Part shown: positions 30,612 to 63,352 of the stretch, one piece after another
How positions within the stretch are numbered: the stretch's first letter is position 1
Layout: each line of letters opens with the position of its first letter
Source of the DNA: Thermophilibacter mediterraneus
GTDB lineage: Bacteria; Actinomycetota; Coriobacteriia; Coriobacteriales; Atopobiaceae
Length of the DNA: 64,000 bases
Reading direction: 5' to 3'
Assembly (NCBI RefSeq): GCF_900119385.1
Contig: NZ_FPKO01000007.1
Span: 124,001-188,000 of the forward strand
Translations under genes and position numbers: made by a program
Notes under the pieces: model-generated
Seen by the model: the letters and a program-made list of their open reading frames with translations, nothing else
Databases searched by the model: none
Told to the model about the DNA's origin: nothing

Positions 30612-31535
30612 ATGGCAGACAAGTTCACGATCAGGGGCGTCGTCCCGCCCGTCGTCGTTCCCGACACGCCCGACCACGAGCTCGACGTCCCCTCGTTCGA
30701 GCGCCTCATCAACCGCCTGATCGACGCCGGCGTCGACGGCCTGTTCTTCCTCGGGTCCTCCGGCGAGGTCGTCTTCTCCACCGACGAGCGTCGTCGCCAG
30801 ATCATCTCCGAGGCGGTGCGCATCGTCGACCACCGCGTGCCCGTCCTCGTCGGCATCATCGACACCGAGACCGAGCGCGTCATCGAGCACGGAAGGGTCG
30901 CCACCGAGCTCGGCGCCGACGCGCTCGTCGCCACCGCGCCCTTCTACGCCCTCGGCGGAATGACCGAGGTCGAGGAGCACTTCCGCATCCTGCACGAGGA
31001 GCTCGACCTGCCGATCTTCGCCTACGACATCCCCGTGTGCGTGCACACCAAGCTCCCCTGGCCGCTGCTCGTCAAGCTCGGCAGCGAGGGCGTGCTCGCC
31101 GGCGTCAAGGACTCCTCCGGCGACGACATCTCCTTCCGCTACCTCTGCCAGGCAAACGAGAAGGCCGGCCACCCGCTGAGCCTGCTCACCGGCCACGAGA
31201 TCGTCGTTGACGGCGCGTACCTCTCCGGCGCCGACGGCTCGGTGCCCGGCCTCGCGAACGTCGAGCCCGAGGGCTACGTCCGCATGTGGCGGGCCGCCGA
31301 GGCGGGTGACTGGGCGACGGTCAAGGCCGAGCAGGACCGACTCAACGACATCTCCCACATCTTCGACGTGACGAGCGGCGTCCAGGGCTACGCGGGAGGC
31401 GTGGGCGCCTTCAAGACCGCCCTCATGCTGCTGGGCGTCTTCGACTCCAACACCATGCCGCGCCCGGTCAAGGCCCTCGAGGGCGACAACGTCGAGGCCA
31501 TCCGCAAGGTCCTCGCCGAGACCGGCCTTCTCTAG
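30612..31535 (+). CDS. nanA: N-acetylneuraminate lyase (DapA family)
   Basis: NanA splits N-acetylneuraminate into N-acetylmannosamine and pyruvate. It encodes 307 residues of the class I aldolase barrel shared with dihydrodipicolinate synthase. It has FLGSSGEVVFS (the GxTGE-type carboxylate loop with Ser for Thr), the catalytic tyrosine in YDIPV (Y138) and the Schiff-base lysine in GVKDSSGD (K166). The sequence alone cannot exclude another DapA-type aldolase; the following nanK and nanE make NanA the best reading. ATG 30612 follows GAAAGGA. Confidence 0.85.
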   Translation: MADKFTIRGVVPPVVVPDTPDHELDVPSFERLINRLIDAGVDGLFFLGSSGEVVFSTDERRRQIISEAVRIVDHRVPVLVGIIDTETERVIEHGRVATELGADALVATAPFYALGGMTEVEEHFRILHEELDLPIFAYDIPVCVHTKLPWPLLVKLGSEGVLAGVKDSSGDDISFRYLCQANEKAGHPLSLLTGHEIVVDGAYLSGADGSVPGLANVEPEGYVRMWRAAEAGDWATVKAEQDRLNDISHIFDVTSGVQGYAGGVGAFKTALMLLGVFDSNTMPRPVKALEGDNVEAIRKVLAETGLL

Positions 31536-31548
31536 GGGAGGAGCTTCC

Positions 31549-32508
31549 ATGAGCCAGACCATCGTCGCCGTCGACATCGGCGGAACCAAGATCGCGTGCG
31601 GGCTCGTCACCCTGGGCGGCGAGAAGCCCGTCATCTCCAAGGTGGAGAAGGTCCCCACCGACGCCATGGCCGGCGGTGAGCACGTTCTCGCCACGGTCCT
31701 CGCGCAGATCAAGGCCGCCATCGAGCGCGCCGACGAGCCGCCCGTGGGCGTGGGCATCTCCTCAGCCGGCGTGGTGAACCCGCGCAACGGCGACATCACC
31801 TTTGCCAACGAGCTCATGCCCGGCTGGGGCGGCACCCGCCTCGGCACCGAGGTCACCGCCGCGACGGGCCTGCCCTGCCGCGTCCTCAACGACGTCCACG
31901 CGCACGCCCTCGGCGAGGCGCGCTGGGGCGGCGGGCGCGACAAGAAGAGCTGCCTGGTGGCAGCCGTGGGCACCGGCATCGGCGGCGCGTTCGTCGAGGG
32001 CGGCAAGATCATGCTCGGCGCGCACGACGAGGCGGGGCACATCGGTCACGTCTGCTGCCCCGCGGCGGCGGGCGTGCCGTGCTCCTGCGGCGCCACCGGC
32101 CACCTCGAGCCGATCGCCGCGGGCCCCGGCATCATCCGCGAGTACGTCCGCCTGGGCGGCGACGAGGCGCTCCCCGACGGGACGCCCATCGACGGCGCGG
32201 AGATCGACCGCCGTGCCGCGGCGGGCGACGAGGCAGCCAAGTCGGCTGAGGCGCGCGCCGGCCGCGCGCTCGGGGAGGTCCTGGGCAGCATGTGCAACAT
32301 GCTCGACCCGGACGTGGTGATCCTCTCGGGCTCCGTGGCCCAGTGCGGCCCCGACTGGTCCGATGCCATGGCCGAGGCCTTCCGCGGCCAGGCGATGCCG
32401 CCCGTCGCCACCACGCCCATCGTGGGCGGCGAGCTCGGCGGCGACGCCCCGCTCATCGGCGCGGCGGAGAACTTCGTGGCCTCCGGCTACGCCGAGGTCG
32501 AGGACTAG
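31549..32508 (+). CDS. nanK: N-acetylmannosamine kinase (ROK family)
   Basis: NanK phosphorylates N-acetylmannosamine at O6. It encodes 319 residues of the ROK family with the ATP loop DIGGTKIACG, the catalytic aspartate in LNDVHAHALGEARWG, GTGIGGAFVEGGKI, and the zinc motif region HIGHVCCP...CSCGATGHLE. In that motif the final usual cysteine (GCLE) is histidine, so zinc binding may be altered. GGGGAGGAG precedes the ATG. It lies 13 bases after nanA. A long inverted repeat separates it from nanE. Confidence 0.88.
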   Translation: MSQTIVAVDIGGTKIACGLVTLGGEKPVISKVEKVPTDAMAGGEHVLATVLAQIKAAIERADEPPVGVGISSAGVVNPRNGDITFANELMPGWGGTRLGTEVTAATGLPCRVLNDVHAHALGEARWGGGRDKKSCLVAAVGTGIGGAFVEGGKIMLGAHDEAGHIGHVCCPAAAGVPCSCGATGHLEPIAAGPGIIREYVRLGGDEALPDGTPIDGAEIDRRAAAGDEAAKSAEARAGRALGEVLGSMCNMLDPDVVILSGSVAQCGPDWSDAMAEAFRGQAMPPVATTPIVGGELGGDAPLIGAAENFVASGYAEVED

Positions 32509-32515
32509 CCCCGCG

Positions 32516-32614
32516 GAAAACCTGACAAAGGTGACAGGGCAGTTTGTCAGGTTTTCCTTCCGCGACCGTCGCACAAAACCTGACAAACTGCCCTGTCACC
32601 TTTGTCAGGTTTTC
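32516..32614. repeat. 99-bp nested perfect inverted repeat between nanK and nanE
   Basis: Two 40-base arms (32516-32555 and 32575-32614) are exact reverse complements, separated by 19 bases. Each arm is itself an inverted repeat: AAAACCTGACAAA and TTTGTCAGGTTTT around 13 bases. In RNA, the arms can pair with each other in one long stem or fold separately as two 13-bp hairpins. The element fills the gap from the nanK stop to the nanE ribosome site. Confidence 0.9.
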
Positions 32615-32630
32615 TTGGAAGGGGAATGTT

Positions 32631-33317
32631 ATGCCCATCTCACCGCTCGTCCAGTCCCTCAAGGGCAAGCTCATCGTCTCCGTCCAGGCCTATCCCGGCG
32701 AGCCGCTGCGCCACCCCGAGACCATGGCCCAGATGGCGCGCGCCTGCGAGCTCGGCGGGGCCGCGGCAATCCGCTGCCAGGGCCTCTCCGACATCGCGGC
32801 GATCAAGGGCCGCGTCGAGATCCCCGTCATCGGCCTGTGGAAGGAGGGCCACGAGGGCGTCTACATCACGCCCACGCTGCGCCACGCGATGGCGTGCGTG
32901 AACGCAGGCGCCGACGTGGTTGCCCTCGACGCCACCGACCGCCCGCGCCCGGACGGCCGCACCTTCAAGGAGACGGTCGAGGCAATCCGCGCGCAGAGCG
33001 ACGTCCTCATCATGGCCGACTGCATGACCATCGACGACATCCGCAACGCCGTAGCCTGCGGCTGCGACCTCGTCTCCACCACGCTCTCCCACAACAAGGC
33101 CGCCATCGACACCACGCTTGAGGACGGCCCCGACGTGCCGCTGCTCAAGCAGGCCACCTCCGAGTTCCCCGACTACCCGATCATCTGCGAGGGCCACGTC
33201 CACACGCCGGCCGACGGCAGGACCGCCATCGACGCCGGCGCATGGGCCGTCGTGGTGGGGACCGGCATCACGCACCCCACCTCGCTCACGAGCTGGTTCA
33301 GGGCTGCGATCGAGTAG
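32631..33317 (+). CDS. nanE: N-acetylmannosamine-6-phosphate 2-epimerase
   Basis: NanE converts ManNAc-6-P to GlcNAc-6-P, which then enters amino-sugar metabolism through NagA and NagB (not in this window). It encodes 228 residues of the NanE TIM-barrel family: GKLIVSVQAYPGEPLR at the N-terminus, the catalytic lysine in GLWKEGHEGVYITPT, ALDATDRPRPDG, and the phosphate loops CEGHVHTPADG and VVGTGITHPT. ATG 32631 follows GGAAGGGG. A longer frame reads back into the inverted repeat and is not credible. Confidence 0.93.
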   Translation: MPISPLVQSLKGKLIVSVQAYPGEPLRHPETMAQMARACELGGAAAIRCQGLSDIAAIKGRVEIPVIGLWKEGHEGVYITPTLRHAMACVNAGADVVALDATDRPRPDGRTFKETVEAIRAQSDVLIMADCMTIDDIRNAVACGCDLVSTTLSHNKAAIDTTLEDGPDVPLLKQATSEFPDYPIICEGHVHTPADGRTAIDAGAWAVVVGTGITHPTSLTSWFRAAIE

Positions 33318-33341
33318 GGCCCCGCGCCCATATGACGAGCC

Positions 33342-33379
33342 GCCCGCCCGCGCGACCTCTCGCGCGGGCGGGCCTCTTT
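33342..33379 (+). terminator. Terminator after nanE
   Basis: A perfect 14-bp GC stem (33342-33355 with 33360-33373) and loop CCTC are followed by CTCTTTG. It is well placed to end the nan operon, 25 bases after the stop. Confidence 0.8.
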
Positions 33380-33451
33380 GTGGCGCGCCCGCCAGGCGCG
33401 TCCCGCGCGGCGGTGCACGCGCGAACCCCCGAATCTGCGCAAAGTGGCAGC

Positions 33452-33654
33452 GGTTGGGTGTCGACTCCTCGGTGTGATCGCTCCTGAGGCGCCACGGAGA
33501 GCTCAGGGGCTCGAATTCTGCCACGTCTCTCGCTCGGTTGGGTATTTGTCGGGTCCGCCGGGACGCTCGGGGCCGAAAGCCGATACCCAACCATGGGGCT
33601 TTCTTGACCGATTCGGGCCTCTGGCCTGACACAGGCGGAGTCGATCACCCAATC
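33452..33654. repeat. Nested inverted repeats, including family 2 copy b
   Basis: The inner hairpin spans 33536-33592 (GGTTGGGTAT / ATACCCAACC), the same 57-base length as the copy at 17304, with a similar right flank (GGGGCTTTCTTGACCGATTC). An outer pair, GGTTGGGTGTCGA (33452-33464) and TCGATCACCCAATC (33641-33654), encloses it. No gene is visible in this gap. Confidence 0.6.
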
Positions 33655-63114: not shown

Positions 63115-63352
63115 CCGCACAATTCCGAGATTGTGCGGCGCCGAGGAGGAGCCCGGGGGAGAAGGGCCTGTTGGCGGCGGCCGGTCAGGAAACGCCTCGA
63201 CTGCGCGCCCCCCGCCGCACAATTCCTGAATTGTGCGGCGGGGCGGGGGGTCCCGGGGACGAGCGTCGGGGTTTCCCCAGATGAGGTCCTTCTCGCGGTC
63301 AGGAAATCGGCCCAGTGCGCGGTCCTGTCCGCACAATTCCGGAATTGTGGCC
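63115..63352. repeat. Cluster of three family 1 palindromes, two 54-bp elements
   Basis: Palindromes CCGCACA...TGTGCGG lie at 63115-63138, 63215-63238 and 63329-63350. The latter two end 54-base units beginning TCAGGAAA (63185, 63299), as at 6777. The first two are exactly 100 bases apart. The cluster fills the 341-base gap between the aminopeptidase and the transposase and abuts the transposase stop codon. No gene is seen here. Confidence 0.75.

Follow-up and report, generated by a model that had tools for sequence, protein, structure and literature searches.

A perfect nested inverted repeat between nanK and nanE of Thermophilibacter mediterraneus, very probably a REPIN-like doublet of a RAYT/TIRYT-linked repeat family

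The nanK-nanE intergenic region

The window analyzed here is a stretch of 64,000 nucleotides of DNA from Thermophilibacter mediterraneus (genome G000). Positions 31549–32508 of its forward strand encode a predicted ROK-family sugar kinase (PF00480, 167 bits). The kinase scores below cut-off against two N-acetylmannosamine kinase models (95, cut-off 450; 107, cut-off 283), thus the name nanK rests on the operon context. The downstream gene on the same strand, positions 32631–33317, is nanE, which encodes N-acetylmannosamine-6-phosphate 2-epimerase. Its identity is confirmed by PF04131 (156 bits) and by NF002231 (257 bits, cut-off 189).

A 99-bp element fills the gap between the kinase stop codon and the ribosome-binding site of nanE. 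It begins 7 nt downstream of the TAG stop codon (32506–32508) and ends 2 nt before GGAAGGGG (32617–32624, forward strand), which by eye is the probable ribosome-binding site of nanE, whose ATG is at position 32631. The left arm (32516–32555, forward strand) displays the palindrome CCTGACAAA-GGTGACAGGGCAG-TTTGTCAGG with A/T flanks, here termed family A. The right arm (32575–32614, reverse strand) is the same palindrome inverted and is the exact reverse complement of the left, i.e. the arms are 40 nt each and 100% complementary. The 19-nt spacer between them (32556–32574) is peculiar to this locus. Each arm contains a 13-bp inverted repeat of its own, AAAACCTGACAAA / TTTGTCAGGTTTT, and that of the left arm reaches 15 bp (32515–32557) when the flanking bases are counted. 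Thus the perfect nested repeat described in an earlier note on this DNA is confirmed, as is its placement directly ahead of the nanE ribosome site. No perfect inverted repeat in the window is longer than that of the 40-nt arms; three mononucleotide shuffles of the window give 15 bp as the longest. The runner-up in the window is at positions 63210–63243 and has 16-bp arms and a 2-nt loop.

The RNA of positions 32500–32645 folds at −88.3 kcal/mol, compared with −40.4 ± 3.9 kcal/mol for 200 shuffles (z = −12.4). According to the earlier note the RNA can choose between one long stem and two small hairpins. The predicted balance between the two forms is uneven: the long stem has −76.0 kcal/mol and the halves folded separately have −20.4 and −14.5 kcal/mol. 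With the long stem so much the stabler, any effect of the small hairpins would have to be kinetic. No intrinsic terminator (GC stem plus T run) is predicted at the element; one is predicted outside it, 3′ of nanE at positions 33342–33373 of the forward strand. A promoter scan of positions 31500–33500 predicts none. Rfam shows no family at gathering score, with sub-threshold matches mostly to microRNA families on the hairpin.

In the mRNA the 40-bp stem would stand as an intercistronic hairpin between nanK and nanE and may serve as a decay barrier to 3′ exonucleases or as an RNase III site. Such a stem would shield the upstream mRNA, and lower or uncouple nanE. This role, read from the predicted fold, is the least certain step of the mechanism proposed below and we give it somewhat less than an even chance.

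Dispersal of the repeat families and their transposase genes

A DNA search of 60 genomes, the window's own included, gives matches in 18. Sixteen of these belong to the genus set, which consists of 31 Thermophilibacter/Olsenella genomes. Among named genomes, the family A pattern scan shows 20 stretches, which come from several Olsenella and from two genomes of Thermophilibacter provencensis. The exact pattern CTGACAA-N5–25-TTGTCAG was scanned in ten genomes and is present 28 times in G017, 12 in G022, nine in G028, eight in G005, five each in G008 and G013, four in G000, three in G012, two in G011 and none in G007. The reversed pattern, used as a control, is absent from all ten with the exception of one occurrence in G022. 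The four palindromes of the window's genome make up two doublets, the nan doublet and one at C6:587653–587723. G005, whose assembly is 98% complete, has its eight A-like palindromes by pattern and no PF01797 gene was found in it.

The A pattern forms 30 pairs (two are family C and three are not inverted), and the arms are exact in 20. A second palindrome, family B (GCGTGCAAAAGGGACAG...TTTTGCACGC), forms 36 pairs with exact arms in 30. By one pattern its palindromes number 94 in G011, 74 in G022, 58 in G000, 51 in G018, 26 in G017, two in G009 and one in G013; the same pattern reversed gives 0. The intergenic placement of copies was checked at the loci read. Spacers vary from doublet to doublet, thus the two arms and their spacer may not be a single mobile unit; jumping of the doublet together with its own spacer was rejected, the spacers being unlike between places.

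Forty of the 60 genomes have matches to the PF01797 (Y1_Tnp) profile. Sixty listed genes, all within the genus, were taken with their flanks, and a tree was made of 55 of the proteins; the five omitted are shorter than 180 aa (L074, L124, L132, L135 and L156). Y1_Tnp genes in G017, G013, G012 and G022 have family A on both sides in inverse orientation (at most two mismatches), and a gene in G028 has a family A copy found at one side. The five proteins constitute one clade (support 100/99). Family B brackets five proteins of a separate clade (100/99), which includes L075 of the window's genome (C1:398949), where the upstream repeat has one mismatch. Other transposase clades bear other end repeats, and a family C doublet is located upstream of a transposase gene in G018.

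Of the 55 alignment rows, 54–55 retain the HVH motif, and several conserved tyrosines are candidates for the catalytic one. With the NCBIfam model of the REP-associated tyrosine transposase (cut-off 80), the B protein of G000 passes at 80.5, whereas L076 of G000 (74.3) and the A protein of G017 (59.6), the one A-clade protein scanned, are below. Two transposase genes appear broken, L092 in G022, where the C-terminal reading diverges, and G008:C32:70112–70444, which has one internal stop codon.

The arm is thus dispersed in relatives, where its copies flank transposase genes of the RAYT type that belong to one clade. This supports the suggestion of the earlier note that the element is a small mobile repeat, movement itself being unseen: no transposition event is seen in the genomes compared. 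In the copy flanks a GT[AG]G tetranucleotide beside the palindrome is absent by eye, and GTAG occurs only within some copies. No target-site duplication was seen by eye in the aligned gaps, and no nanK-nanE gap is recognizable as the empty ancestor of an A insertion.

We consider it highly likely that in this 99-bp element two head-to-head copies of the RAYT/TIRYT-linked family A form a REPIN-like inverted doublet that is probably mobile. A probable mobile repeat thus accounts for the striking perfect palindrome, and dispersed doublets linked to RAYT/TIRYT genes are hereby shown in Coriobacteriia. The proposed mechanism starts from repeats that flank RAYT/TIRYT-type HUH-tyrosine transposase genes on either end and also lie scattered in intergenic DNA. 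The cognate transposase would spread the repeat as a single-stranded hairpin, as has been proposed for REP elements.

Three PF01797 genes are present in the window's genome, i.e. L074, the B gene L075 and L076, and a transposase of the A clade was not found among them. L076 itself is outside the A clade; a degenerate A-like repeat adjoins it, and by eye the sequence 3′ of L076 resembles that 3′ of the A genes in G017 and G022. The end repeat of L076, TTGACACT...AGTGTCAA, occurs seven times in G000 and is absent from G009, G011 and G017, and two of the seven copies have the inner GGTGACAGGGCA of family A. L076 (G000 C1:1069900–1073300), L077 of G017 and L092 of G022 occupy what appears to be one syntenic place, where the end repeats differ by species. 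This place is probably a case of orthoswitch. Family A would then be a relic in the window's genome, because the syntenic transposase is of a different branch, whose end repeats also differ, and both A doublets of G000 are probably leftovers.

Inheritance and concerted change of the doublets

NanE is above threshold in 21 of the 31 genus genomes. In three (G004, G007 and G014) no nanK adjoins nanE, and the junction was read in 17, with G025 left out. Doublets occupy eight of the 17 gaps and are of four kinds: A in G000, G013 and G017, B in G011, G022 and G018, C in G009, and in G029 a pair with other arms (patterns D and I). The other nine gaps are without a doublet; by eye, seven display an unrelated GC-rich hairpin (G001, G006, G008, G015, G016, G021 and G030), G019 a short hairpin and G026 a weak one. 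By eye a hairpin of some sort is available in all 17 gaps, with energies from −88 to a weak −14 kcal/mol (G026).

On a tree of nanK plus nanE the A and B labels need three changes each. G022 (B) has G017 (A) as its sister with support of 90/92, and G018 (B) has G016 (GC hairpin) with 99/97. Operon recombination could account for the scatter of the labels. At the nan gap, 21 comparisons of spacers give no convincing homology of A with B doublets (best cross-family p = 0.02). Between separate B doublets the best spacer match, G022 with G018 in inverted sense (p = 0.009), is not convincing either.

The element is located between a stop codon and a ribosome site, it has a very stable fold, and some hairpin can be drawn in each of the 17 gaps, all of which would suit an attenuator or riboregulator that evolved locally in the nan operon and is unrelated to mobile elements. 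This origin is very improbable and is refuted by dispersal, as the same sequence is found elsewhere and adjoins transposase genes. In addition, other sequences occupy the place in sister species, and the element shows neither a terminator nor an Rfam family at gathering score. A regulatory role acquired later by a mobile repeat is possible.

In G017 and G013 the nan doublet is found at the orthologous position between the same flanks and is thus not recent; the recent origin considered in the earlier note is not supported. The second A doublet of G000 is likewise common to G017 and G013 in the same place. These orthologous doublets refute a recent inverted duplication without function, a reading which the exactness of the arms would favor and which now has next to no likelihood. 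At L002 positions 1503–1571, the orthologue in G022 (L249) is a single half of the A doublet with a clean junction, which represents either a lost half or a state before doubling.

The arms within a doublet change together. At eight places the arms are identical in 26 of 27 doublets, though they vary between species, and the sole exception is the purB doublet of G004. In the nan doublet a single position sets G013 apart from G000 and G017, and the change is present in both arms. The purB doublet of G017 is unlike five others in both arms, while its 22-nt spacer is recognizably theirs. All arm differences between compared intact doublets are two-sided. The gene conversion or selection invoked in the earlier note is supported as concerted arm change, however the two causes are not told apart for certain.

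In the acs-iorA gap the spacer of G002 (L324) is the inverted spacer of G000 (L303) and G022 (L315) at 13 of 14 letters, with the arms in place. Nine of 10 letters agree once the GC ends, themselves part of the repeat, are removed, and the match is equalled by 57 of 200,000 shuffles. The acs spacers of G018 and G011 and those at a 754-kb place are too divergent for sure orthology. In the same gap, L327 (G028) and L325 (G013) both have the spacer caagcgtgaa, with flanking hairpins that differ between the species; the two hairpins of L327 are also unlike each other, i.e. a hybrid pair.

Template switching between the arms of an inverted repeat is described as homogenizing the arms, with inversion of the spacer as a by-product, in the portion of PMC8604942 consulted. 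Template switching during replication would keep the arms of the doublets identical and could also invert spacers, and from the sequence comparisons it appears to be the best explanation of the joint change. Compensatory selection for a long RNA or DNA stem would likewise leave the arm differences of intact doublets two-sided. We regard it as unlikely, though well above negligible: an intermediate is present in only one of 27 doublets (purB of G004), the inner 13 nt, most of which the small hairpins leave unpaired, are conserved too, and template switching is reported to yield inverted spacers as a by-product (PMC8604942, as consulted in part).

Operon gaps and comparison with known systems

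Three additional gaps, after purB, between acs and iorA, and after potA, were picked via three other B doublets of G000 and then read across the genus, so that all four gaps were chosen for a doublet in the window's genome. The names purB, potA, acs and iorA are readings of translations. Repeats are present in 18 of 29 gaps after purB (five families; a thirtieth, incomplete gap is left out of the count), in 21 of 27 acs-iorA gaps (seven families), and in two of 13 gaps after potA, both B, with a fragment in G017. The purB and acs-iorA gaps thus repeat the pattern seen at nan, and the potA gap does not. The purB gaps of G014 and G023 have no insert whatever, and the acs-iorA gaps of G020 and G027 have other long inverted repeats, beyond the 21. 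Eleven arm types are told apart by pattern across the three gaps, a few of them perhaps variants of each other, and eight of the 11 (A, B, C, E, F, I, J and K) are by eye also found beside some transposase gene.

Control windows about 1.5 kb upstream of purB, acs and potA contain a family repeat in two of 70 cases and those downstream beyond the three gaps in four of 68, a contrast that is somewhat inflated because the family patterns were written after the gaps had been read. Not counting the family that led to its choice, a gap is found occupied in 31 of 68 cases (purB 11 of 22, acs 15 of 21, potA 0 of 11, nan 5 of 14). A generic hairpin detector, which misses imperfect repeats, gives 15 of 29 for purB, 18 of 27 for acs, 12 of 17 for nan (four being GC hairpins) and two of 13 for potA (one GC hairpin). 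Outside the gaps it has no hits in the roughly 109 kb that precede the four query genes, and 14 in the roughly 127 kb that follow the gaps. Ten of these 14 are REP-signature hairpins past the acs gap in several genomes, where the family patterns are found in 0 of 26 windows.

Different families at one gap are also found elsewhere. One gap with nearly identical flanks has a B doublet in G000 and an A doublet in G013, and another has B in G000, G017 and G022 and a different palindrome in G013. Comparison of 38 B places of G000 (from 50 of the 58 B palindromes, those listed) with 40 sampled A regions of G017, G022 and G013, also a partial set, shows one common gap, the A/B gap just named, which could be at chance level.

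Several families may have met in one gap by chance, these being simply the few gaps that tolerate insertion, and we put this only a little short of an even chance. The potA gap, with B in two of 13 and nothing else, and the single gap common to the two partial lists, no obvious excess, are consistent with it. Against it, 31 of 68 gaps are occupied without the choosing family, compared with two of 70 upstream control windows. More tentatively, and on balance doubtful, certain operon gaps may be standing berths for RAYT-type hairpins, where occupancy lasts and the family changes by species. Either a new family would overwrite the resident hairpin, or the host would keep any useful intercistronic stem. 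If the berths are real, mobile repeats would be interchangeable parts of operon architecture. Aligned gaps in which the same genes enclose different hairpin families provide a test bed for whether REP hairpins are parasites or useful parts of operons.

A search of the open-licence literature found no paper on such repeats in Coriobacteriia or on different families in one gap. Of the traits of REP/REPIN systems, a short dispersed palindrome is present here in relatives (the own genome has only four), as are inverted doublets and, in relatives, a transposase gene flanked by the same repeat; the tag is not. In the part of PMC3116915 consulted, the REPINs of Pseudomonas are similar in being inverted doublets of a dispersed extragenic palindrome, with a potential hairpin and a link to RAYT genes. 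The elements described here differ in that there is no GT[AG]G tag, the spacers are place-specific and the phylum is another.

TIRtrons, as far as the consulted part of PMC3733652 describes them, have Y1 transposases (TIRYT) and non-GTAG inverted repeats with the core GGGGWSAS, sometimes dispersed and dimeric. The portion of PMC6006769 consulted places TIRYT in subclass 2.1 of TnpA-Y1 and finds no REP-like sequences next to the genes of this subclass. The present families share with TIRtrons a Y1 HUH transposase gene between inverted repeats that are without the GTAG tag, and many B and F copies have a GGGGWSAS-like core, GGGGACAG. Unlike TIRtrons, family A has GGTGACAG, one base off this core, and a single genus has many families side by side, which are met again and again in the same gaps of operons. 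The C-terminal helix-turn-helix is seen here only as weak Pfam matches below cut-off, near residues 225–277 of four proteins.

In the REP orthoswitch, according to the section of PMC3686654 consulted, a syntenic transposase has different end repeats in related strains and the old repeats are left as relics. L076 of G000 compared with L077 of G017 is similar to this; unrelated families in one gap across species are not mentioned in that section. The homogenized arms, the inverted spacer and the maintained hairpins resemble the products of template switching in the parts consulted of PMC8604942 and PMC8794818, where the sequences concerned are yeast coding sequence and RNA hairpins, whereas those described here are REP doublets.
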